Source: Methylobacterium sp. NMS14P | GTDB taxonomy: Bacteria > Pseudomonadota > Alphaproteobacteria > Rhizobiales > Beijerinckiaceae | Direction of reading: 5' to 3' | Length of the DNA stretch: 64,000 nt | Assembly (NCBI RefSeq): GCF_028583545.1 | Contig: NZ_CP087106.1 | Coordinates: 3,270,501-3,334,500 of the forward strand | Part shown: positions 3,392-59,696 of the stretch, one piece after another | Layout of the letters: each line of letters starts with the position of its first letter | Numbering within the stretch: the first letter of the stretch is position 1 | Translations under genes and position numbers: made by a program | Notes under the pieces: model-generated | Told to the model about the DNA's origin: nothing | The model's database searches: none | The model's input: the letters and a program-made list of their open reading frames with translations, nothing else

Positions 3392-4612
3392 TCAGGCCGC
3401 GGTCTCGCGGACCACGCCCCGCGCGATCAGCGCGTCGATCTCCGCCGGCGCGTAGCCGGCCTCCGCCAGGATCGCCCGGGAATGCTCGCCGAGCAACGGG
3501 GCCGGCCCGTGCACGCGTCCCGGTGTCTCGGAGAACTTCACCGGCAGGCCGAGGGTCTTCATGCGCCCGACCCGCGGGTGATCGACCTCGACCACCATCT
3601 CGCGGGCGAGCGCCTGCGGGTCGCGGTGCATGGCGTTCACGTCGAGGACCGGCCCGGCCGGGACGCCGCCGGCCTCGAGCCGGGCGAGCCACTCGGCCGA
3701 GCTGTGGGCCCGGAAGATCGGCGCGAGGGTCGCGGCGAGGTCGTGCCGGTTGGCCATCCGGTCGCGGTTGAGCGCGAAGCGCGGGTCCTCGGCGAGGCGG
3801 TCCGCGCCGATGGCCTTGAGCAGGCGCAGCCAGTTGGTCTGGTTGGCCGCGCCGATCGTGATCCACCCGTCGGCGGTCTCGAAGGCCTCGTAGGGGGCGT
3901 TCAGCGGATGGGCCGAGCCCATCGGGCCGGGCGCGATCCCGGTCGCCATGGCGATGGCCGACTGCCAGTAGGTGTGGGTGATGCCGGCCTCGAACAGCGA
4001 CGTGTCGACCGCCTGGCCTTGGCCCGTCCGGAGCCGGTTCGCGTAGGCGGCCAGGACGCCCATCGCGGCCAGGATGCCGGCGGTGATGTCGGTGACCGGC
4101 GGCCCGCACTTCATCGGCGGACGCCCGGGCCCCTCCCCGGTCACCGACATGAGGCCGCTCATGCCCTGCGCCACGAGGTCGAACCCGGCGCGGTCGGCGT
4201 AGGGACCGGTGCGGCCGAAGCCGGAGAGCGAGCAGTAGACCAGTTCGGGGAACTCGACCTTCAGGGTCTCGTACCCGATCCCGAGGCGCTCCATCGTGCC
4301 GCCGCGGTAGTTCTCGATCAGGGCGTCCGCGCCCCTGAGCAGGCGGCGCAGGACCGCCACGCCGTCCGGATCCTTCAGGTCGAGGCTGATGCCGCGCTTG
4401 CCGCGGTTCATCATCATGTAGGCGGCGCTCTCGCCCTCGAGGGCGGGCGGGACGGTGCGACGGGTGTCGTCGCCCTCCATCTTCTCGACCTTGATCACCT
4501 CCGCGCCCATGTCGGCGAGCATCAGCCCGCAGACCGGCCCGGCCATGATGTGGGCGAGCTCGATCACCCGCATCCCGGCGAGCGGGCCGGACCGCTCCAT
4601 CGTCTCCGCCAT
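3392..4612 (-). CDS. Class III CoA-transferase, CaiB/BaiF family
   Basis: This 406-residue protein matches family III CoA-transferases, which move CoA between organic acids. The N-terminal block GMRVIELAHIMAGPVCGLML with GAEVIKVEK is diagnostic. The probable catalytic aspartate is Asp175 in PPVTDITAG, which becomes acylated in this family. NRGKRGISLDLK and LIENYRGGTMERLG are further family motifs. The length is usual. The start lies 6 bases after the stop of the MFS gene, so the two are probably coupled. Substrates (carnitine, formate/oxalate, mesaconate or a dicarboxylate) cannot be decided. The paired crotonase suggests that the CoA product is an enoyl-CoA or is turned into one. Confidence 0.92.
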   Translation of the reverse strand: MAETMERSGPLAGMRVIELAHIMAGPVCGLMLADMGAEVIKVEKMEGDDTRRTVPPALEGESAAYMMMNRGKRGISLDLKDPDGVAVLRRLLRGADALIENYRGGTMERLGIGYETLKVEFPELVYCSLSGFGRTGPYADRAGFDLVAQGMSGLMSVTGEGPGRPPMKCGPPVTDITAGILAAMGVLAAYANRLRTGQGQAVDTSLFEAGITHTYWQSAIAMATGIAPGPMGSAHPLNAPYEAFETADGWITIGAANQTNWLRLLKAIGADRLAEDPRFALNRDRMANRHDLAATLAPIFRAHSSAEWLARLEAGGVPAGPVLDVNAMHRDPQALAREMVVEVDHPRVGRMKTLGLPVKFSETPGRVHGPAPLLGEHSRAILAEAGYAPAEIDALIARGVVRETAA

Positions 4613-6135: not shown

Positions 6136-7386
6136 TCAGGCGGTCGCGGGCCGGAGCTGGCCCTGCTCGGCCTCGGTGGCGGTGCCGAGCGCCTTGCCGC
6201 GCGGCCCGACCCAGCTGCCGACCCACTTGCGCTGCCAGAGGGCGAGGCATCCGAGGACGACCGCCGTGAAGACGGCGTAGCCGACGAAGCCCAGCGAGAA
6301 CGAGCCGGTATACTGCTTGGACAGGCCCATGACGTTCGGCAGGATCGCGCCGCCCAGCGCCCCGACCTCGCCGATCATCGAGCCGGCCACGGCCGTGTTG
6401 CTGGGCCAGCGCAGCGGCACGAGCTGGAACAGCGCGCCGTTGCCGGCGCCGAGCGCCGCGAAGCACAGCATGAACAGGAGCGTTGTCAGCGCCAGCGACG
6501 GGGTCGCGGTCAGCGAGAGCAGCGTCGCGATCGCCGCGAGCAGCACCACCGACAGGACCGCGATGCCGCCCATCCGGTCGGCAAAGTAGCCGCCGACGAT
6601 CCGGATGCCCGAGCCCATGAAGGCCGCCAGCATGGTCAGGCGCCCGGCCTCGACCTTCGTCACCGCGAACTGCTCGTAGAAGAAGGTCGGCAGGAAGTTC
6701 GACAGGCCGATGAAGCCGCCGAAGGTGATGACGTAGATCAGCGAGAACGCCCAGCCGTCCTTGGTGAACAGGCAGGAGACGTGCTCCTTGAAAGACTGGT
6801 GCTCGCAATCCGGCGGCTCCTTGGCGAGCACGATCATGATCGCGAGGGGCAGCAGCATGACGACGCCCGCGAACGCGTAGGTGGTCTGCCAGCCGTAGGC
6901 CTGGGCCAGCGGCGGGGCGAACAGCACGGCCAGCACGGTGCCGGAATTGCCGGCGCCCGCGATGCCCATCGCCAACCCCTTGTGCTCCGGCGGGAACCAG
7001 CCCGAGCCGAGGGACAGCGCGACGCCGAAGGACGCGCCGGCGATGCCGAGCAGGACGCCCATGGCGAGCACGTCGTTGTAGGAGGAGACGAAGAGATAGC
7101 CGTAGGCCATCGCCAGCATGATCACGCTCATCTCGGTGATCGCGGCGTTCTTGCGGCCGATATACTGGGCCAGGACGCCGAGCGGGAAGCGCATCAGCGC
7201 GCCCGCCAGGATCGGCAGCGAGATCATGAAGCCGGTCTGGGCCGGCGAGAGCTTGAAGGTCTCGGTGATGAACGGCCCCATGGCGCCGTTCAGGACCCAG
7301 ATGGCGAAGCAGAAATCGAAGTAGAGGAATGCCGCGAACAGCGTCGGGGGGTGACCCGACTTCATCACCGTTTTGAAGCTGGCCAT
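6136..7386 (-). CDS. narK: Nitrate/nitrite transporter, NarK/NasA type (MFS)
   Basis: This 416-residue, 12-helix MFS protein belongs to the nitrate/nitrite porter family. The glycine-rich nitrate signatures are visible twice: GIAGAGNSGTVLAVLFAPPL in the first half and GALGAGNGALFQLVP-like sequence (ALGAGNGALFQLVPLRWP) in the second half. The N-terminus MKSGHPPTLFAAFLYFDFCF is typical of assimilatory NarK/NasA. It would import nitrate for assimilation or export nitrite. No nitrate reductase gene is in the window. The gene stands alone with a terminator after it. A leader of about 400 bases with an ANTAR-type hairpin precedes it, hinting at NasT-like antitermination control. Confidence 0.88.
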   Translation of the reverse strand: MASFKTVMKSGHPPTLFAAFLYFDFCFAIWVLNGAMGPFITETFKLSPAQTGFMISLPILAGALMRFPLGVLAQYIGRKNAAITEMSVIMLAMAYGYLFVSSYNDVLAMGVLLGIAGASFGVALSLGSGWFPPEHKGLAMGIAGAGNSGTVLAVLFAPPLAQAYGWQTTYAFAGVVMLLPLAIMIVLAKEPPDCEHQSFKEHVSCLFTKDGWAFSLIYVITFGGFIGLSNFLPTFFYEQFAVTKVEAGRLTMLAAFMGSGIRIVGGYFADRMGGIAVLSVVLLAAIATLLSLTATPSLALTTLLFMLCFAALGAGNGALFQLVPLRWPSNTAVAGSMIGEVGALGGAILPNVMGLSKQYTGSFSLGFVGYAVFTAVVLGCLALWQRKWVGSWVGPRGKALGTATEAEQGQLRPATA

Positions 7387-7883
7387 AGCTGGTGCTCGTC
7401 GTAAGTGGGCGAACCGCCACGCGGTCGCTCATGCCGGGGATCCGGACTCACACCGTCCGCTGTTTGGAGCGCCGTTGCTCCGTGGCCGCTGCAGGCGCGG
7501 CTGCGTGGGCAATGCAGCAAGCGTGCCATATCGCACAGGACATCCGCCGCCGGGATCGCCGCCTCGACGAGCGTCGGGCCAGGGCGCGCTCCGCCGAGTC
7601 GCTGCCGCGCGGCGAGGCAGGGGTGCCGAGTAAACGGGCGCTCGCCCGGCGCCCTCACGGATCGGTGAGCGGCGCCGCCGAAATCATTGCTGCACGAGGG
7701 CAACACAGGTGCCGAGAAACGACGGCGAAGACCCTGTAAGTTGCCCTCGATCATCGTCAGCAACTTGGCGGTAAAGCGCCACCTTTGCTAAGCCCCGGGA
7801 TGAGCTGTGCCGCGACTTCGTGCCGGCCCGCTCGCCTGCGCGTCGCGGCAAGCCCCGGCGACGCCTCCCGAGGAATTCGAACC
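7387..7883. promoter_or_regulatory. Divergent control region of narK and an L,D-transpeptidase gene
   Basis: This 497-base gap holds no convincing gene. It separates narK (minus) from the L,D-transpeptidase gene (plus). The narK-proximal part contains a hairpin at 7466-7481 (5-bp stem, loop AACGGC on the minus strand) described separately. The far side (about 7740-7790) is less GC-rich and probably contains the promoters. No clear -35/-10 pair stands out. Confidence 0.45.
7466..7481 (-). promoter_or_regulatory. ANTAR-type hexaloop hairpin in the narK leader
   Basis: On the minus strand GGAGC-AACGGC-GCTCC forms a 5-bp stem with a six-base loop that has A at position 1 and G at position 4. Those two bases are the conserved loop positions recognised by ANTAR-domain antiterminators such as NasT. 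It sits about 80 bases upstream of the narK start. A second hairpin of the expected pair is not clear, so the call is tentative. Confidence 0.35.
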
Positions 7884-8834
7884 ATGTCCGCCCCGATCCG
7901 TCGCCTTCTCCTGGCCGGCTTCACGGTCCTCGCCCTCGCCACCACCGCGCACGCCCAGGGCCGCGGCCCGGTGGGCGAGGCCGGGATCGACGGGTTCGGC
8001 GACGACGGTCAGCTCTACCAGGACCAGAACGGCGCGCTCTACGTCCGTCGCGGCGGCCGCTACCTGCCCTATACCGGCCGCACCGACTTCGTGCGCCCGG
8101 CACCGCCGCGACCCGCCGCGCAGGCCCCGGTCGCGCCGCCGCCGGCGACCGCCCTGGAGACGGACGATCCGACGGTGCCGGCCCGCCCGGGCAGCGCGGC
8201 GCCGGCCGAGGGCCTGTCGCCCCTGGAGGCCGCCAAGGCCAAGGCGGTTCTCCGCGCGCCCGACAATGAGCCGATCGACTACGCGAAGGTCTACGGCCCG
8301 ATCACGGACGACGTGTTCCCGGTCCAGGCGTTCAATTACAAGAAGATGAACCCGGCGTTCCTCCGTCAGGAGATCGCCTATCACGGCCCCTACGAGCCGG
8401 GGACGATCATCGTCGACCCGCGGGCCCACCAGCTCACCCTGGTCGAGGCGAACGGCCGCGCTCGCCGCTACGGCGTCGGCGTCGGCAAGCAGGGCTTCTC
8501 GTGGTCGGGCACCGCGACGGTGAACTCCAAGCAGGCGTGGCCGGACTGGTACCCGCCGAAGGAGATGATCGCCCGCAGCCCGAAGCTCGCCAGCGAGGTC
8601 GACAAGCTGCAGAGCGGCCTCGGCGTCGCCGGCGGCCTGCGCAACCCCCTCGGCGCCCGCGCCATGTACCTCTGGCAGGGCAACAAGGACACGCTGTTCC
8701 GCATCCACGGGACGCTGGAGCCCTTCTCCATCGGCAAGAGCGTGTCCTCGGGCTGCATCCGGATGATCAATCAGGACGCGATCGACCTGTTCAGCCGCGT
8801 CAACGTCGGCAGCAAGGTGGTGGTGCTGAACTGA
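7884..8834 (+). CDS. Secreted L,D-transpeptidase (YkuD domain)
   Basis: This 316-residue protein makes 3-3 cross-links in peptidoglycan or anchors proteins to it, acting in the periplasm. The chosen ATG gives a clean signal peptide (RRLLLAGFTVLALATTAHAQ) and follows a GAGGAATT ribosome-binding site; the frame is open further upstream without coding character. Residues 20-130 are a proline/alanine-rich linker after a short RYLPYTGRTDF motif. The catalytic domain covers roughly residues 170-316, with His275 (FRIHGT) and the catalytic Cys291 in SSGCIRM. The length suits the single-domain rhizobial type. It ends 58 bases from the convergent glpX, with a shared terminator between. Confidence 0.93.
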   Translation: MSAPIRRLLLAGFTVLALATTAHAQGRGPVGEAGIDGFGDDGQLYQDQNGALYVRRGGRYLPYTGRTDFVRPAPPRPAAQAPVAPPPATALETDDPTVPARPGSAAPAEGLSPLEAAKAKAVLRAPDNEPIDYAKVYGPITDDVFPVQAFNYKKMNPAFLRQEIAYHGPYEPGTIIVDPRAHQLTLVEANGRARRYGVGVGKQGFSWSGTATVNSKQAWPDWYPPKEMIARSPKLASEVDKLQSGLGVAGGLRNPLGARAMYLWQGNKDTLFRIHGTLEPFSIGKSVSSGCIRMINQDAIDLFSRVNVGSKVVVLN

Positions 8835-8858
8835 GGCCGGACTGAGCCCAGGGTCCGC

Positions 8859-8885
8859 GGGCCGCCGGTCGGTGACCGGCGGCCC
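8859..8885. terminator. Bidirectional terminator between the L,D-transpeptidase gene and glpX
   Basis: A perfect 12-bp stem (8859-8870 with 8874-8885) closes on a 3-base loop. It lies midway between two convergent stop codons and can serve both strands. No long T-run is present. Confidence 0.75.
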
Positions 8886-8891
8886 TCCGGT

Positions 8892-9875
8892 TCACGCCAG
8901 CCCGCGCCGGTGCTCGCCGAGGATCCGGCGGACCGTCCCGGCCTCCGACCGGTAGACCAGGGTCTCGGTCTGGATCCTGTCGGGCCGGAAGCGCACGCCG
9001 CGCAGGAGTGCCCCGTCGGTGATGCCCGTGGCGGCCACGATGACGTCGCCGCTCGCGAGGTCGGTCAGGTCGTACTTCCGGTCCAGATTCTCGATCCCCA
9101 TCTCGGCGGCCCGGCGCCGCCGGTCCGGGGTGTCGAGGATCAGGCGTCCCTGCATCTGGCCGCCGATGCAGCGCATCGCGGCGGCGGCCAGCACGCCCTC
9201 GGGCGCCGCGCCGGTCCCGAGATACAGGTCGATGCCGGTCTCCTCGGGGCTGGCGGTGAAGATGATCCCGGCGATGTCGCCGTCCGAGATCAGGCGCACC
9301 GCCGCGCCGGCCGCCCGCACCTCGGCGACGAGGGCCGCGTGGCGCGGCCGGTCCAGGATCAGGGCGGTGATCTGCTTCGGGTCGACGCCCTTGGCCCGGG
9401 CCAGCGCCGCGATGTTGTCGGTCGGGCTGGCATCGAGATCGACGAGACCGGGCGGGTATCCTGGCCCGATGGCGATCTTCTGCATGTAGACGTCGGGCGC
9501 GGCGAGGAGCGAGCCGCGCTCGGCCATGGCCATGACCGCGATGGCGCCGGGCATGTCCTTGGCGCAGAGGGTCGTGCCCTCCAGCGGGTCGACCGCGATG
9601 TCGACCTCGGGCCCTTCCCCGAGGCCGAGCTGCTCGCCGATGAACAGCATCGGTGCCTGGTCGCGCTCCCCTTCCCCGATCACCACGGTGCCGCGGATCG
9701 GCAGGCCGTTGAGCTCGTCGCGCATCGCGTCGACCGCCGCCTGGTCGGCCGCCTTCTCGTCGCCCTGGCCACGCAATCGGGCAGCCGCGATGGCGGCGCG
9801 CTCCGTCACGCGGGCGAGTTCGAGGGCGAGCGTGCGCGGGACGCCGCGCGATGCCGACTTGGGGGCCTCAACCAT
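8892..9875 (-). CDS. glpX: Class II fructose-1,6-bisphosphatase (GlpX)
   Basis: This 327-residue enzyme removes the 1-phosphate of fructose 1,6-bisphosphate in gluconeogenesis and, in many proteobacteria, of sedoheptulose bisphosphate in the Calvin cycle. GlpX motifs are plain: VTERAAIAAARLRGQGDEK, a metal- and phosphate-binding VVIGEGERDQAPML, and AVDPLEGTTLCA, followed by LGTGAAPEGVLAAAAMRCIGG. The length matches E. coli GlpX. It lies just downstream of hom on the same strand with a 145-base gap. The same hom-glpX order is known from other alphaproteobacteria. Confidence 0.95.
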   Translation of the reverse strand: MVEAPKSASRGVPRTLALELARVTERAAIAAARLRGQGDEKAADQAAVDAMRDELNGLPIRGTVVIGEGERDQAPMLFIGEQLGLGEGPEVDIAVDPLEGTTLCAKDMPGAIAVMAMAERGSLLAAPDVYMQKIAIGPGYPPGLVDLDASPTDNIAALARAKGVDPKQITALILDRPRHAALVAEVRAAGAAVRLISDGDIAGIIFTASPEETGIDLYLGTGAAPEGVLAAAAMRCIGGQMQGRLILDTPDRRRRAAEMGIENLDRKYDLTDLASGDVIVAATGITDGALLRGVRFRPDRIQTETLVYRSEAGTVRRILGEHRRGLA

Positions 9876-10020
9876 GGTGTCCTGCCTCTGGCCGGGTCCG
9901 ATCTTGGGGTCGGATCCCGGGTGGATACCGTCGGATGACGGCCAACCAGCCTATACGCCGGTTCGCCGACGCCCACTATCCTGCATCAGGCGATGGCAGG
10001 CGACCGAACTATATGCACTG

Positions 10021-55598: not shown

Positions 55599-57287
55599 GT
55601 GCCCGACCCGCAAGCCGCCCCGACACTGCCCAAGGTCGCGACGGGCATCACCGGTTTCGACGACCTGACGTACGGCGGACTGCCGGCCGGGCGGCCGACG
55701 CTCATCTGCGGCGCGGCGGGCTGCGGCAAGACGCTGTTCGCCACGACCTTCCTGGTCAACGGCGCGACGCTCTACGGCGAGCCCGGCGTGTTCATGAGCT
55801 TCGAGGAGCGGGCCGATGATCTGGCGGCGAACGTCGCGTCGCTCGGCTACGACCTCGACGGCCTCGTCGCCGCCGGCCATCTCGCGATCGACCACGTCCG
55901 CGTGGAGCGGAGCGAGATCGAGGAGACCGGCGAGTACGACCTCGAGGGCCTGTTCATCCGCCTCGGCTTCGCGGTGGATTCGATCGGCGCCAAGCGCGTC
56001 GTTCTCGACACGATCGAGACCCTGTTCGCGGGCTTCACCGATCCGACGCTGCTCCGCGCCGAGCTGCGCCGCCTGTTCGGCTGGATCAAGGATCGCGGTC
56101 TGACCGCGATCATCACGGGCGAGCGCGGCGACGGGCCACTCACCCGCCAGGGCCTGGAGGAGTACGTCTCCGACTGCGTCGTCCTGCTCGATAACCGCGT
56201 CGAGGCCCAGATAACGACGCGGCGGCTGCGCGTCGTGAAGTATCGCGGCTCCGCCCACGGCACCAACGAGTACCCGTTTTTGATCGATCACGCGGGAATC
56301 AGCGTCCTGCCCGTGACCTCGACGGATCTCGACTACGCCGTGCCCGACGGCATCCTCTCCACCGGAATCGCCGGGCTCGATGCCATGCTGGGGCCGCGGG
56401 GCTTCCATCGCGGCTCCGGGATTCTGATCTCCGGCGAGGCGGGGACCGGGAAGAGCATGCTCGCCGCCTCGATCCTCGACGCGGCCTGCCGGCGCGGCGA
56501 GCGCTGCATGGCCTTCGTGTTCGAGGAGAGCGGCGCCCAGATCATCCGCAACGCGCGCTCGATCGGGCTCGACCTCGCCGCGCACGTGGCGAGCGGCCGC
56601 CTCCGGTTCGAGGCGGCGCGGCCGAGCCTGTTCGGGCTGGAGACGCATCTCGCGCGGATGCACCGCGACCTCGACCAGTTCCGGCCGGACGTGGTGGTGC
56701 TCGACCCCATCTCCGCCCTGCGCGGGCCGTCGGGCGAGCTGCAGGCGACGCTCCTGCGCATGATCGACCTGATCAAGACCCGCGGCATCACGGCGATCTT
56801 CACCACCCTGCGCGGGGACGGCTCGCTGATCGAGGACGACGATCTCGGCGTGTCCTCGCTGATGGATGCCTGGATCAAGCTCCAGAACATGGAGGCGAAC
56901 GGCGAGCGGACGCGGACCCTCTACGTCATCAAGGCGCGGGGCATGAGCCACTCCAACCAGATTCGCGAATTTCTGATGTCGTCGGGCGGGATCCAGTTGG
57001 TGGATGCCTATATTGGTCCTTCAGGTGTCGTAACCGGGACAGCGCGCTTGGTTCAGGAGGCGCAGGAGCGCGCCGCGGCGCAGCAGCAGCGGGACGCGAC
57101 CGAGCGCCGGCTCCGGGACATGGCGCGCCGGCGCTCCGCCCTGGAGCGCCAGATCGAGGAGCTCAGGGCCGGTCTCGAGGCGGCCGTGGACGAGGAGGAG
57201 AGCCTGCGCGCCGAGGACGCAGCGCGCGGCGTCACGCTCGCGGCGGAGCAGCAGGCGTTGATCGCACGACGGAGTGCCGCGGAATGA
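55599..57287 (+). CDS. kaiC: Circadian clock-type KaiC ATPase/autokinase
   Basis: This 562-residue protein has two RecA-like domains. CI has Walker A at 38-45 (GAAGCGKT) and the catalytic Glu pair at 69-70 ([10 protein letters not shown]). CII has Walker A at 279-286 (GEAGTGKS) and its Glu pair at 309-310 (FVFEESGAQ). The phosphorylation loop ([19 protein letters not shown]) aligns with the S. elongatus one and has Ser419-Ser420 at the Ser431/Thr432 sites, with Asp at the Thr426 site. The end (about 500-562) is a charged coiled coil, unlike the cyanobacterial KaiA-binding tail. The GTG at 55599 is chosen because the fold starts within 15 residues. It heads an operon with two kaiB genes and a kinase. 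Confidence 0.94.
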
Positions 57288-57625
57288 GCGATACGACATC
57301 GGACGACCAGGCACCCGACACGGATCCCGACCGCGATTCCGGCCACTATCACCTGCGCCTCTACGTCGCCGGACAGACGGCCAAGTCCCTCGCCGCCCTG
57401 ACCAACCTGAAGCGCTTCTGCGAGGAGCATCTGGCCGGCCACTACGACATTGAGGTCATCGACCTCATGAAGAACCCGCAGCTCGCCGCCGGCGATCAGA
57501 TCCTCGCGATCCCGACCCTCGTGCGCCGGCTGCCGTCGCCGTTGAAGCGGATCATCGGCGATCTGTCGAACACCGAGAAGGTGCTGGTCGGCCTCGACAT
57601 CCGTCCCAAGGCCGACCGGCCTTGA
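57284..57625 (+). CDS. kaiB: KaiB clock protein, canonical paralogue
   Basis: This 113-residue protein is a KaiB with an acidic N-terminal extension of about 20 residues ([20 protein letters not shown]). The core follows: [40 protein letters not shown] and [20 protein letters not shown]. The fold-switch motif GLD (VLVGLDIRP), with the Gly and Asp that tune the change between tetramer and KaiC-bound forms in S. elongatus, is kept. KaiB binds phosphorylated KaiC. The ATG overlaps the kaiC stop by four bases. Confidence 0.95.
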
Positions 57626-57939
57626 TCGCGGCCGTACCCGCGCCGACGGACGCGGAGCGCGTCCGGTTGCGGCTGTTCGTGGCCGGGACCGCGCCGCGCT
57701 CGCTGCGCGCCGTCGAGATCCTGCGCCGCGTCTGCGAGACCCATATCGCGGGCCGCTACGACCTGGAGATCGTCGACATCTATCAGCAGCCCGACCTCGC
57801 CGAGCGCGACGGTATCCTCGCCGCTCCCACACTCCTGAAGCTGGCACCGGGCCCGGAACGGCGCCTCTCGGGCGATCTCCTCGACGAGGGCCGCGTGCTG
57901 CGCGGTCTCGAGATCGCGTCCGCCGCGGAGCCGCTCTGA
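57622..57939 (+). CDS. kaiB: KaiB-like protein, second divergent paralogue
   Basis: This 105-residue KaiB-like protein starts at TTG overlapping the first kaiB stop (TTGA). It keeps the thioredoxin-like core ([60 protein letters not shown]). It differs from the first KaiB in key places: GLE replaces GLD at the fold-switch motif, and the stretch before GDL lacks the basic RRI pattern. The short core without N-terminal extension is closer to the length of the cyanobacterial protein. It may bind KaiC differently or serve the kinase instead. The kinase gene overlaps its stop by one base (TGATG). Confidence 0.9.
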
Positions 57940-59696
57940 TGGGTGTGGACGCCTTGCTGCCCGGCGACGAGCCCGGGCTCGACGCCTACCGCGCCCATAT
58001 CCGCGAACTCGAGGCGCGGCTCGAGGAGAGCGAGGAGACCCTCGCGGCCATCCGCCGGGGCGATTTCGACGCCGTCGTGGTTGAGGGGCCGAACCACGAG
58101 CGCCTCGTCTACACGCTCGAGAACGCGGACCTGCCCTACCGGGCGCTGATCGAGCAGATGCAGGAGGGCGCCTTCACGTTGGCGCTGGACGGGACGCTGC
58201 TCTACTGCAACCGGCGGCTGGCCGAGATGCTCGGCGAGCCGCAGGAGCGCCTGACCGGCCGCCCGCTCCAGGATTTCGTGCACGCGGATGTCGACCTCGA
58301 GCGCCTGATCCACCGGGCGATGGACGGCCCCGTCCGCGAGGAGATCGCGCTGCACGCGGCGGCGGGCTCCGAGAGCGCCACCTTCCTGTCGCTGAGCCGC
58401 TTCGCCTGCCAGGGCGATCAGCCGCTGCTCTGCGGGGTCCTGACGGACCTGACCGAGCAGAGGCGCAACATGCTGGCCCTCGCGGAGGCCCATGCCCGCC
58501 TCCAGTCGGAGAGCGCCGAGCGCGAGCGCGTCGAGGAGGCGCTGCGGCAGTCGCAGAAGCTCGAGGCGGTGGGTCAGCTGACCGGCGGCGTCGCCCACGA
58601 CTTCAACAACCTCCTGACGGTGATCAAATCCTCCACCGATCTGCTCAAGCGGCCGGCGCTGCCGGAGGAGCGCCGCCGCCGCTACGTCGAGGCCATCTCC
58701 GACACGGTCGACCGCGCCGCCAAGCTGACCGGTCAGCTCCTGGCCTTCGCGCGCCGTCAGGCCCTCAAGCCCGAGGTGTTCGAGGTGGGCGCGTCGCTGC
58801 GTGCCGTGGCGGAGATGCTCGACTCGGTCACCGGCGCGCGCATCAGCGTGGTGGCCGAGATTCCCGACACGCCCTGCCACATCCGCGCCGATCTCAGCCA
58901 GTTCGAGACCGCGCTGATCAACATGGCGGTGAACGCCCGCGATGCGATGGGCGGTGAGGGCACCCTGACCCTGACGCTCTCGGGCGACCGGCCCATGCCG
59001 GCGATCCGCGGGCATGCGGGATCGCGCAGCACCTTCGCGGCGGTGTCGCTGTCCGACACCGGCATCGGGATCCCGCCCGACGTGCTGCCGCGCATCTTCG
59101 AGCCGTTCTTCACCACCAAGGACATCGGCAAGGGCACCGGGCTCGGGTTGTCCCAGGTCTTCGGCTTCGCCAAGCAGTCCGGGGGGGACGTCGACGTGTC
59201 CAGCACCCCCGGCCACGGGACGACCTTCACCCTCTACCTGCCGCAGGCGGAGGACGCACCGGACGTGTCCGCCGCCCCGCCGAGCGAGGAGAACGGGTTC
59301 GACGGTGCCAGCCTCTGCGTGCTCGTGGTCGAGGACAATATCGAGGTCGGCCGCTTCGCCACGCAGATCCTGGAGGATCTCGGCCACAAGACCGTCTGGG
59401 CGACCAACGCCGAGGAGGCGCTCGTCGAGATCGAGAGGATTCCCTTCCGCTTCGACGCCGTGTTCTCCGACGTGGTGATGCCCGGCATGGGCGGCATCGG
59501 GCTGGCCCGCGAGCTGCAGCGGCGCCTCCCCAACCTGCCGGTGGTCCTCACCTCCGGCTACAGCCACGTGCTGGCGCAGGAGGGCGTCCACGGCTTCGAC
59601 CTGATCCAGAAGCCCTACTCGGTGGATCAGCTCTCGCAGACCCTCCGCAAGGTCGTCGGCAAGGGCCGTGCCGGAGTCAGGCGCGGCCGGCGCTGA
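57939..59696 (+). CDS. Hybrid sensor histidine kinase (PAS-HisKA-HATPase-REC) coupled to kaiCBB
   Basis: This 585-residue cytoplasmic kinase has a coiled-coil N-terminus, a PAS domain (about 70-175, DLPYRALIEQMQEGAFTLAL), a second coil, then HisKA with phospho-His220 in GGVAHDFNNLLTVIKSS. The HATPase domain (about 320-445) has NMAVNARDAM, DTGIGIP and GTGLGLS. A C-terminal receiver (about 455-575) has acidic LVVEDNIEV, phospho-Asp511 in FSDVVMPGMGG and Lys in LIQKPYS. There is no membrane segment and no KaiB-like domain as in cyanobacterial SasA; the sensing module is PAS. No output or HPt domain is present, so a phosphorelay partner lies elsewhere. Overlap with kaiB makes it part of the kai operon. 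Confidence 0.93.
   Translation: MGVDALLPGDEPGLDAYRAHIRELEARLEESEETLAAIRRGDFDAVVVEGPNHERLVYTLENADLPYRALIEQMQEGAFTLALDGTLLYCNRRLAEMLGEPQERLTGRPLQDFVHADVDLERLIHRAMDGPVREEIALHAAAGSESATFLSLSRFACQGDQPLLCGVLTDLTEQRRNMLALAEAHARLQSESAERERVEEALRQSQKLEAVGQLTGGVAHDFNNLLTVIKSSTDLLKRPALPEERRRRYVEAISDTVDRAAKLTGQLLAFARRQALKPEVFEVGASLRAVAEMLDSVTGARISVVAEIPDTPCHIRADLSQFETALINMAVNARDAMGGEGTLTLTLSGDRPMPAIRGHAGSRSTFAAVSLSDTGIGIPPDVLPRIFEPFFTTKDIGKGTGLGLSQVFGFAKQSGGDVDVSSTPGHGTTFTLYLPQAEDAPDVSAAPPSEENGFDGASLCVLVVEDNIEVGRFATQILEDLGHKTVWATNAEEALVEIERIPFRFDAVFSDVVMPGMGGIGLARELQRRLPNLPVVLTSGYSHVLAQEGVHGFDLIQKPYSVDQLSQTLRKVVGKGRAGVRRGRR

Follow-up and report, generated by a model that had tools for sequence, protein, structure and literature searches.

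How might a KaiC timer that works without KaiA hand its state on to an output? The question is raised by an operon in the window, by which we mean the whole 64,000-nucleotide stretch of Methylobacterium sp. NMS14P under study (contig NZ_CP087106.1, positions 3,270,501 to 3,334,500). Four plus-strand open reading frames (ORFs) spanning positions 55599–59696 of the window encode KaiC, two different KaiB proteins, here KaiBa and KaiBb, and a hybrid histidine kinase, with successive overlaps of 4, 4 and 1 bases. An earlier note, made from the letters of this DNA, had proposed a four-gene operon without KaiA, overlaps of 1–4 bases, a complete double-ATPase KaiC and a PAS hybrid kinase devoid of a KaiB-like domain, and ORFs and Pfam matches bear it out. 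The KaiC ATPase domain is found twice (E = 8.7e-103), both KaiBs match the KaiB family (1.3e-25 for KaiBa and 5.8e-23 for KaiBb), and the kinase contains PAS, HisKA, HATPase_c and REC domains, with no match to the KaiB model in the chain and no Pfam match in its residues 1–66. The genome (6.88 Mb, three contigs) has no KaiB beyond the operon's two and no match to the KaiA family PF07688, for which S. elongatus served as positive control, KaiA3-like proteins outside this Pfam model not having been searched for. What the note overlooked is a kai-linked leader at the N-terminus of the kinase and the apparent likeness of the second KaiB to the KaiB domain of SasA. With a probability that we put at roughly 55%, the operon encodes a KaiBC timer that runs independently of KaiA, with a dedicated output: a SasA split into separate chains, in which the output half has been swapped between species while the leader and, mostly, KaiBb have been kept.

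Judged by its sequence, the KaiC of the operon is of the Rhodobacter (Cereibacter) sphaeroides hourglass type, with two ATPase domains, two phospho-serines and a long tail; we call such KaiCs coil-type. It scores 716.8 bits against the NCBIfam model PRK09302 (cut-off 408) and falls below the cut-off of TIGR02655, the circadian KaiC model. Its best relative in the Protein Data Bank (PDB) is R. sphaeroides KaiC (8dba, 636.8 bits), aligned over residues 10–535 and so into the tail, versus about 311–321 bits for S. elongatus and T. elongatus type chains among the matches listed; another chain named KaiC, 8zn5, reaches 362.5 bits. The earlier note pointed to Rhodopseudomonas palustris for a related KaiA-less KaiBC–kinase system; the closest studied system is instead R. 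sphaeroides. S419-S420 align with S413/S414 of R. sphaeroides, both columns being Glu in 8fwi. The two serines and the catalytic Glu (EE) pairs are invariant in the 11 rows of our KaiC alignment A2, and the tail is kept in 11 of 11. Papers are cited here by PMC number and represented by parts of their text; one of them gives tails of this kind as typical of the KaiC2 subgroup (PMC11372060). The same genome (G000) encodes a second double-domain KaiC (C1:1487232-1488614; L002, L004), distant from the coil type and with no KaiB match nearby.

A kai-linked leader on the downstream protein

The leader comprises about 45 residues N-terminal of PAS in the gene that follows kaiB. That of the window kinase matches the leader alignment A3 with E = 4.7e-20, the sole match in its own genome. 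AlphaFold2 predicts a helix (residues 14–40) and the two strands of a hairpin (45–49 and 55–59), the hairpin at lower confidence. The pattern L-RARLEEAEETLRAIRSGEVDALVVSG-G-QVFTL stands ahead of PAS in 89 of the 95 downstream ORFs from operons with coil-type KaiC. We handled 101 operon loci, six of which yielded no downstream ORF by our rule (L060, L117, L139, L164, L175 and L183); the leaders of L060 (genome G131) and L117 (G564) were found regardless by the class and phylum profile scans described below. The six ORFs that miss the pattern are those of L123 (motif variant), L160 (alternative start), L146 (wrong frame), L178 (start outside the ORF picked), L135 and L136. Across 77 aligned tandem loci, the Asp of the leader is invariant and the leader is better conserved than the adjoining PAS domain (mean distance 0.51 versus 0.72).

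Profile searches link this leader to kai genes. First, 19 of 61 genomes of relatives searched with A3 have a match, one each; the set coincides with the 19 genomes of the genus that carry KaiB, and in each the leader comes right after kaiBb. The search found no leader in any of the 18 KaiB-less congeners, which rejects the leader as a general feature of PAS kinases, and none in 24 genomes of the same order, although one of these (G053) has a divergent KaiB.

Second, the class sample gave a leader match in 10 of 385 genomes: five with E below 1e-15, which are exactly the genomes with tandem kaiB, and five that are weak and partial (E from 5e-6 to 7e-4). Matches in the phylum sample number 12 in 398 genomes, nine of them with E below 1e-15 and every one of these beside kaiB, the others being G465 (2.8e-6, beside kaiB), G533 (1.4e-8) and G551 (5.8e-4). 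At most 17–18 first-look candidates were scored per genome in these two scans. Strong matches overall, by a hand-counted union, come from 30 genomes, one each, and always adjoin kaiB.

Third, we tested KaiC itself, by alignment, in 56 genomes (all KaiB or leader carriers of both samples with the exception of G033 and of four genomes below the KaiB cut-off). Coil-type KaiC, scoring at least 785 bits, is present in 13, and all 13 have a leader match (12 strong, and G465 at 2.8e-6). The remaining KaiB carriers have listed KaiC matches of at most 473 bits, mostly ending near model position 490, before the tail; a strong leader match was found in none of them.

One genome, G533, can be described as a single case of a naturally decayed timer. 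In its locus L249 (contig C3), a 78-residue ORF (6595–6831) begins as KaiC and finishes as KaiB, an in-frame remnant, and the next gene (6828–9944; 1,038 amino acids (aa)) keeps the first half of the leader, its VDA and hairpin part being lost. Other arrangements were seen in passing. L151, L152, L157, L158 and similar Bacteroidota loci have a short leader gene of about 232–241 aa, directly followed in L152 and L158 by a kinase-like ORF. The KaiCs of L254, L255 and L069 come from a distant group whose tails are coil-like; kaiC is followed there by a divergent kaiB, and the leader is absent in these loci.

The effectors that carry the leader differ in their modules. Pfam finds PAS in all 83 downstream proteins scanned (12 of the 95 ORFs were left out: L135, L136, L146, L178, L160 and seven of the genus), HATPase_c in 48, HisKA in 44, REC in 30 and HWE in 11, and more rarely HisKA_3, GGDEF and EAL (three each) and HD and sigma-54 (two each), the latter with a Fis helix-turn-helix (HTH). 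The REC kinase, part of what looked less described to the earlier note, is thus one among several output types at this position. A protein search with residues 8–60 of the L170 effector gave 1,864 matches among 2,078 candidates, of which the 120 listed show the same output range. Could the effector instead be an input, its PAS kinase sensing redox, oxygen or light and adjusting the timer via the leader? The presence of PAS in every protein scanned would suit such a role, as would the oxygen sensing suggested for the R. sphaeroides PAS kinase (PMC10931921), but GGDEF–EAL, HD and sigma-54 with Fis HTH are typical effectors and hard to conceive as KaiC inputs, and we regard an input role as quite improbable.

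Two KaiB lineages

KaiBa and KaiBb are 46% identical across 94 aa, and both score under the cut-offs of both circadian KaiB models of NCBIfam. On the evidence of trees, the two are separate lineages in a fixed gene order. FastTree, run on 225 KaiB domains, has one branch (support 85) that parts first from second copies, with 87 of the 88 first copies on one side and 85 of the 88 second copies on the other; not in line are L145 (order swapped by script) and two loci with more than two kaiBs, L150 (four) and L160 (three), whose last copy is on the b side. An IQ-TREE sample of 36 of the 88 tandem loci (eight named and 28 random; L145, L150 and L160 were ineligible) splits 36 of 36 first from 36 of 36 second copies by one branch with a Shimodaira–Hasegawa-like approximate likelihood ratio test (SH-aLRT) value of 90, and its a side includes R. 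sphaeroides, G743 and two cyanobacterial KaiBs. When KaiB–effector fusions and further single KaiBs are added, the split stays 36 to 36 (SH-aLRT 86). L159, which has a single KaiB, is a-side in FastTree but b-side in model scores and IQ-TREE, and is in neither count. A recent duplication within the genus is rejected, as the copies belong to separate lineages common to several phyla.

Further kaiB arrangements were noted. Four kaiBs stand in a row in L150 (6652–8236, a Planctomycetota bin) and three in L160 (7704–8900, an archaeal bin), the last on the b side and the others on the a side. L108–L116 have the order kaiB–kaiC–kaiB, or two kaiBs ahead of kaiC (~505 aa), with the second kaiB on the b side in FastTree. 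L210, on a plasmid of Hymenobacter sp., has an annotated kaiB (3962–4255) and no annotated kaiC within about 4 kb.

Tandem kaiB together with a REC kinase had seemed to the earlier note a little-described trait, and this did not survive wider sampling. KaiB is present in 19 of 37 genomes of the genus, our own included, and each of the 19 has two copies and no more, lying near each other, so the operon is not a chance arrangement. Among the 385 genomes of the class sample, 14 have KaiB above cut-off and five of these have it in tandem. The KaiC alignment used to scan for named loci has a tandem locus in its first row, so that this sample is biased; in the best 80 of 587 confirmed stretches, less L176, which runs off a contig end, at least two kaiBs are found in 73 of 79 evaluable loci and one in six. 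By record title, their hosts include Pseudomonadota, Bacteroidota, Verrucomicrobia, Planctomycetota, Acidobacteria, Chloroflexota, Nitrospira, Spirochaetia, Polyangium and Methanoperedens archaea, many of them metagenome bins in which mis-binning is possible. Of 14 coil-type KaiC genomes in the class and phylum samples, eight are tandem (G000, G033, G684, G131, G424, G306, G105 and G564), three of these being of the genus, which leaves 5 of 11 outside it; five have a KaiBa-side KaiB only (G743, G498, G505, G470 and G465, the a-side call for three of them being a margin of 3–6 bits in model scores) and one has KaiBb only (G662). Tandem kaiB as a rare feature is thus rejected. The arrangement kaiCBB has already been named in print, in one sentence (PMC5944118), and RefSeq gives the name KaiB to each of the two KaiBs in a plasmid operon of Pararhizobium.

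By sequence KaiBb is closer to KaiB than to SasA, and its best named protein relatives come from Methylobacterium; its fold is predicted to be the switched, SasA-like one. AlphaFold2, given an alignment of ten close relatives following PMC10808063, models KaiBb as strand-helix-strand-helix-strand-strand-helix with a mean predicted local distance difference test score of 78.9 in the best of five models. The top 13 of the 50 PDB matches listed for this model are KaiB chains (foldswitch-stabilised, KaiC-bound, Legionella KaiB and KaiB-TV4) and SasA N-domains, thioredoxins come after them, and no free ground-state KaiB is among the 50. Positions 68 and 83, which were altered to flip R. sphaeroides KaiB (PMC10808063), are E and R in the KaiBb of the operon and L and V in its KaiBa. 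In nine operons of the genus, position 83 is D, R or H in every KaiBb and V in every KaiBa, and position 68 of KaiBb varies (E, A, V, L or Q).

Natural fusions place this second lineage next to the leader. One of the 120 listed leader matches, P0239, has a KaiB domain beside the leader, and a search with that domain, admitting proteins 0.55–1.75 times its 771 aa, brought KaiB–effector fusions to 17 matches, P0239 included. By listed Pfam matches, their outputs are 11 histidine-kinase ATPases, four GGDEF–EAL, one SpoIIE-type (P0254) and one with PAS only (P0256, partial); PAS is present in 16 of the 17, P0254 being without it. A leader match lies behind the KaiB domain in all 17, two of them weak (20.0 and 21.8 bits). 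Every fusion KaiB domain scores at least 14 bits higher with the b-type model than with the a-type, which is not a clean test because some a-side KaiBs too score higher with the b model; the tree places all 17 on the b side.

Weighing a split SasA

The fusions, which pair KaiBb with a leader effector, and the predicted KaiBb fold, which resembles the SasA domain, are the grounds on which we propose a split SasA. By homology with R. sphaeroides, KaiC would autophosphorylate without KaiA, with the ATP/ADP ratio setting its state, and its coiled-coil tail would couple two hexamers. KaiBa would be a fold-switching KaiB of the ordinary kind, binding to the CI ring and accelerating ATP hydrolysis. 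KaiBb, by its model, resembles the KaiB domain of SasA but is a chain of its own: predicted to be held in a binding-competent thioredoxin-like fold and acting like the SasA N-terminal domain, it would compete with KaiBa for docking on the CI ring and recruit the effector to KaiC. The leader would serve as the coupling element between the state of the KaiBC complex and the activity of the PAS kinase, and the kinase would then hand phosphate to its own REC and to a partner. A wider form of the proposal, to which we give a little short of even odds, is that the leader is a dedicated Kai-docking module which, together with KaiBb, provides KaiC timers that lack KaiA with a general output port in bacteria and archaea. 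This port would take histidine kinases, c-di-GMP enzymes and sigma-54 activators, and it would be older than the cyanobacterial KaiABC–SasA system and modular, that system being a special case of it.

Several observations weigh against the split-SasA proposal. KaiBa-only operons (R. sphaeroides L208; G743, G498, G505, G470 and G465) retain the leader, so that the leader is independent of KaiBb and KaiBb is dispensable; the leader may then itself touch KaiC or KaiBa, which speaks against a strict split SasA. A mirror-tree test of the leader's partner was not decisive and singled out none: the partial correlations of the leader given the KaiC core are 0.27 for KaiBa, 0.20 for KaiBb and 0.17 for the tail. 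The KaiCs of G099 (518 bits), G377 (499) and G559 (411), which belong to a more distant group, are tailed and have no leader adjoining, so the tail alone is no predictor of the leader, and a coil-like tail as a sufficient one is rejected. Positions 68 and 83 are both polar or charged in 9 of 88 KaiBb and in 0 of 91 KaiBa, so the fold-switched state is best supported for the KaiBb of the operon and not for the clade; a clade-wide lock read from these two residues alone is unsupported. The AlphaFold2 evidence on KaiB folds covers KaiBb alone. Among the fusions, frameshifts may account for P0239, P0254 and P0255, the others reading as clean, and, the search having been seeded with a b-type domain, KaiBa fusions were less fully sought. 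The KaiB trees were built from about 100 columns, too few to resolve their deeper branching order.

These points bring up a different division of labour, in which docking on KaiC, or on its tail, is really done by the leader, and KaiBb is no adaptor and serves as a second reset factor that tunes the KaiC ATPase or phosphatase. The leader is seen beside KaiBa only, KaiBb only or both, it is matched in each of the 13 coil-type KaiC genomes, and L124, L130 and L181 have coil-type KaiC with a b-side KaiB as their sole KaiB, all of which favours docking by the leader itself. Pulling the other way, a KaiB of the b lineage is joined directly to the leader in every one of the 17 fusions found, and, among the three Kai partners tested, the KaiC tail has the lowest partial correlation with the leader. 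On balance we think this alternative unlikely.

A further question is what such an operon would be for. The split-SasA wiring is compatible with a switch for stress or energy charge that has no role in daily timing, which we consider possible, at odds somewhat below even. Legionella KaiB has been implicated in stress responses and not in circadian rhythms (PMC10808063), and a KaiB match is lacking in 18 of the 37 genomes sampled in the genus; set against this, the homologous KaiBC of R. sphaeroides has been called an hourglass timer (PMC10076222).

Features, known relatives and meaning

Table 1. Features of the kai operon, in window coordinates
Feature	Position	Strand	Evidence
kaiC, 562 aa, GTG start, coil-type / KaiC2-like double ATPase	55599..57287	+	Pfam, NCBIfam PRK09302, best PDB relative 8dba
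S419-S420, two phospho-acceptor serines of KaiC	56853..56858	+	alignment to 8dba and 8fwi; A2
C-terminal tail of KaiC, about residues 488-562, coiled coil by homology	57060..57284	+	alignment to R. sphaeroides tail; A2
kaiBa, 113 aa, ATG start, tree side of R. sphaeroides and cyanobacterial KaiB	57284..57625	+	Pfam KaiB, trees
kaiBb, 105 aa, TTG start, second KaiB lineage, predicted fold-switched	57622..57939	+	Pfam KaiB, trees, AlphaFold2
Effector, leader-PAS-HisKA-HATPase_c-REC hybrid kinase, 585 aa, ATG start	57939..59696	+	Pfam
kai-linked N-terminal leader of effector, predicted helix and beta-hairpin	57984..58121	+	A3 match E 4.7e-20; AlphaFold2
PAS domain of effector	58137..58466	+	Pfam PAS 67-127 / PAS_4 72-176
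Receiver (REC) domain of hybrid kinase	59319..59645	+	Pfam Response_reg 461-569

Outside cyanobacteria, nearly every kaiC–kaiB cluster has, directly after kaiC or kaiB, a gene for a kinase or a GGDEF/EAL protein (PMC3164672), KaiB2-like proteins are the main KaiB homologues (PMC5520375), and PAS kinases lie near kai genes in R. rubrum and R. sphaeroides (PMC10931921, PMC6627678). The R. sphaeroides KaiBC hourglass shares with our operon the two ATPase domains, the SS phospho-sites and the tail of KaiC, the gene order kaiC–kaiB–PAS kinase, a kinase with the leader pattern and the absence of KaiA (PMC10076222). It differs in having a single KaiB, of the KaiBa lineage, and an HWE kinase without REC, where our operon has two KaiBs and a HisKA–REC hybrid kinase; with one KaiB lineage in that operon, the second had little chance of study. 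R. palustris likewise has the order kaiC–kaiB–PAS histidine kinase, with one predicted promoter, and a KaiC tail that exceeds the cyanobacterial one by about 50 aa (PMC4794148), but one kaiB in the cluster as described there.

KaiBb is predicted in a SasA-like fold (1t4y and 6x61 are among the structure matches listed), and the natural fusions, like SasA, put a KaiB-like domain ahead of a kinase. In our operon, by contrast with SasA, the KaiB-like part is a separate chain, not covalently N-terminal to the kinase, and the effector combines a leader with PAS and REC. The kaiCBB of Thiodictyon syntrophicum Cad16 also has two kaiB with kaiC, but with a diguanylate cyclase upstream and, in the text available from that paper, no analysis of lineages or output (PMC5944118). 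KaiB-TV4 and Legionella KaiB are fold-switched KaiB-family proteins, and the structures matched by KaiBb include 4kun and 8ubh; unlike the role proposed here, they are not reported, in the parts of that paper represented, as adaptors beside a second KaiB (PMC10808063). The KaiABC circadian oscillator differs from the operon by its KaiA. Within the portions of the open-licence PMC literature consulted, other print lying outside this coverage, we found no description of the leader, the two-lineage KaiB pair, KaiBb–effector fusions or KaiBb as an adaptor, and the output side, that is, the leader and the link between KaiBb and the effector, looks undescribed.

KaiA-less KaiBC timers occur widely, and work on R. 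sphaeroides has established their core chemistry, with no worked-out output path found in the same portions of the literature. The leader and KaiBb offer two short, testable handles on timer output, and the leader can be used for finding candidate timer outputs in any genome. If the proposal is true, a plug-in output port common to very different signalling proteins across phyla could explain how the timer is read out.

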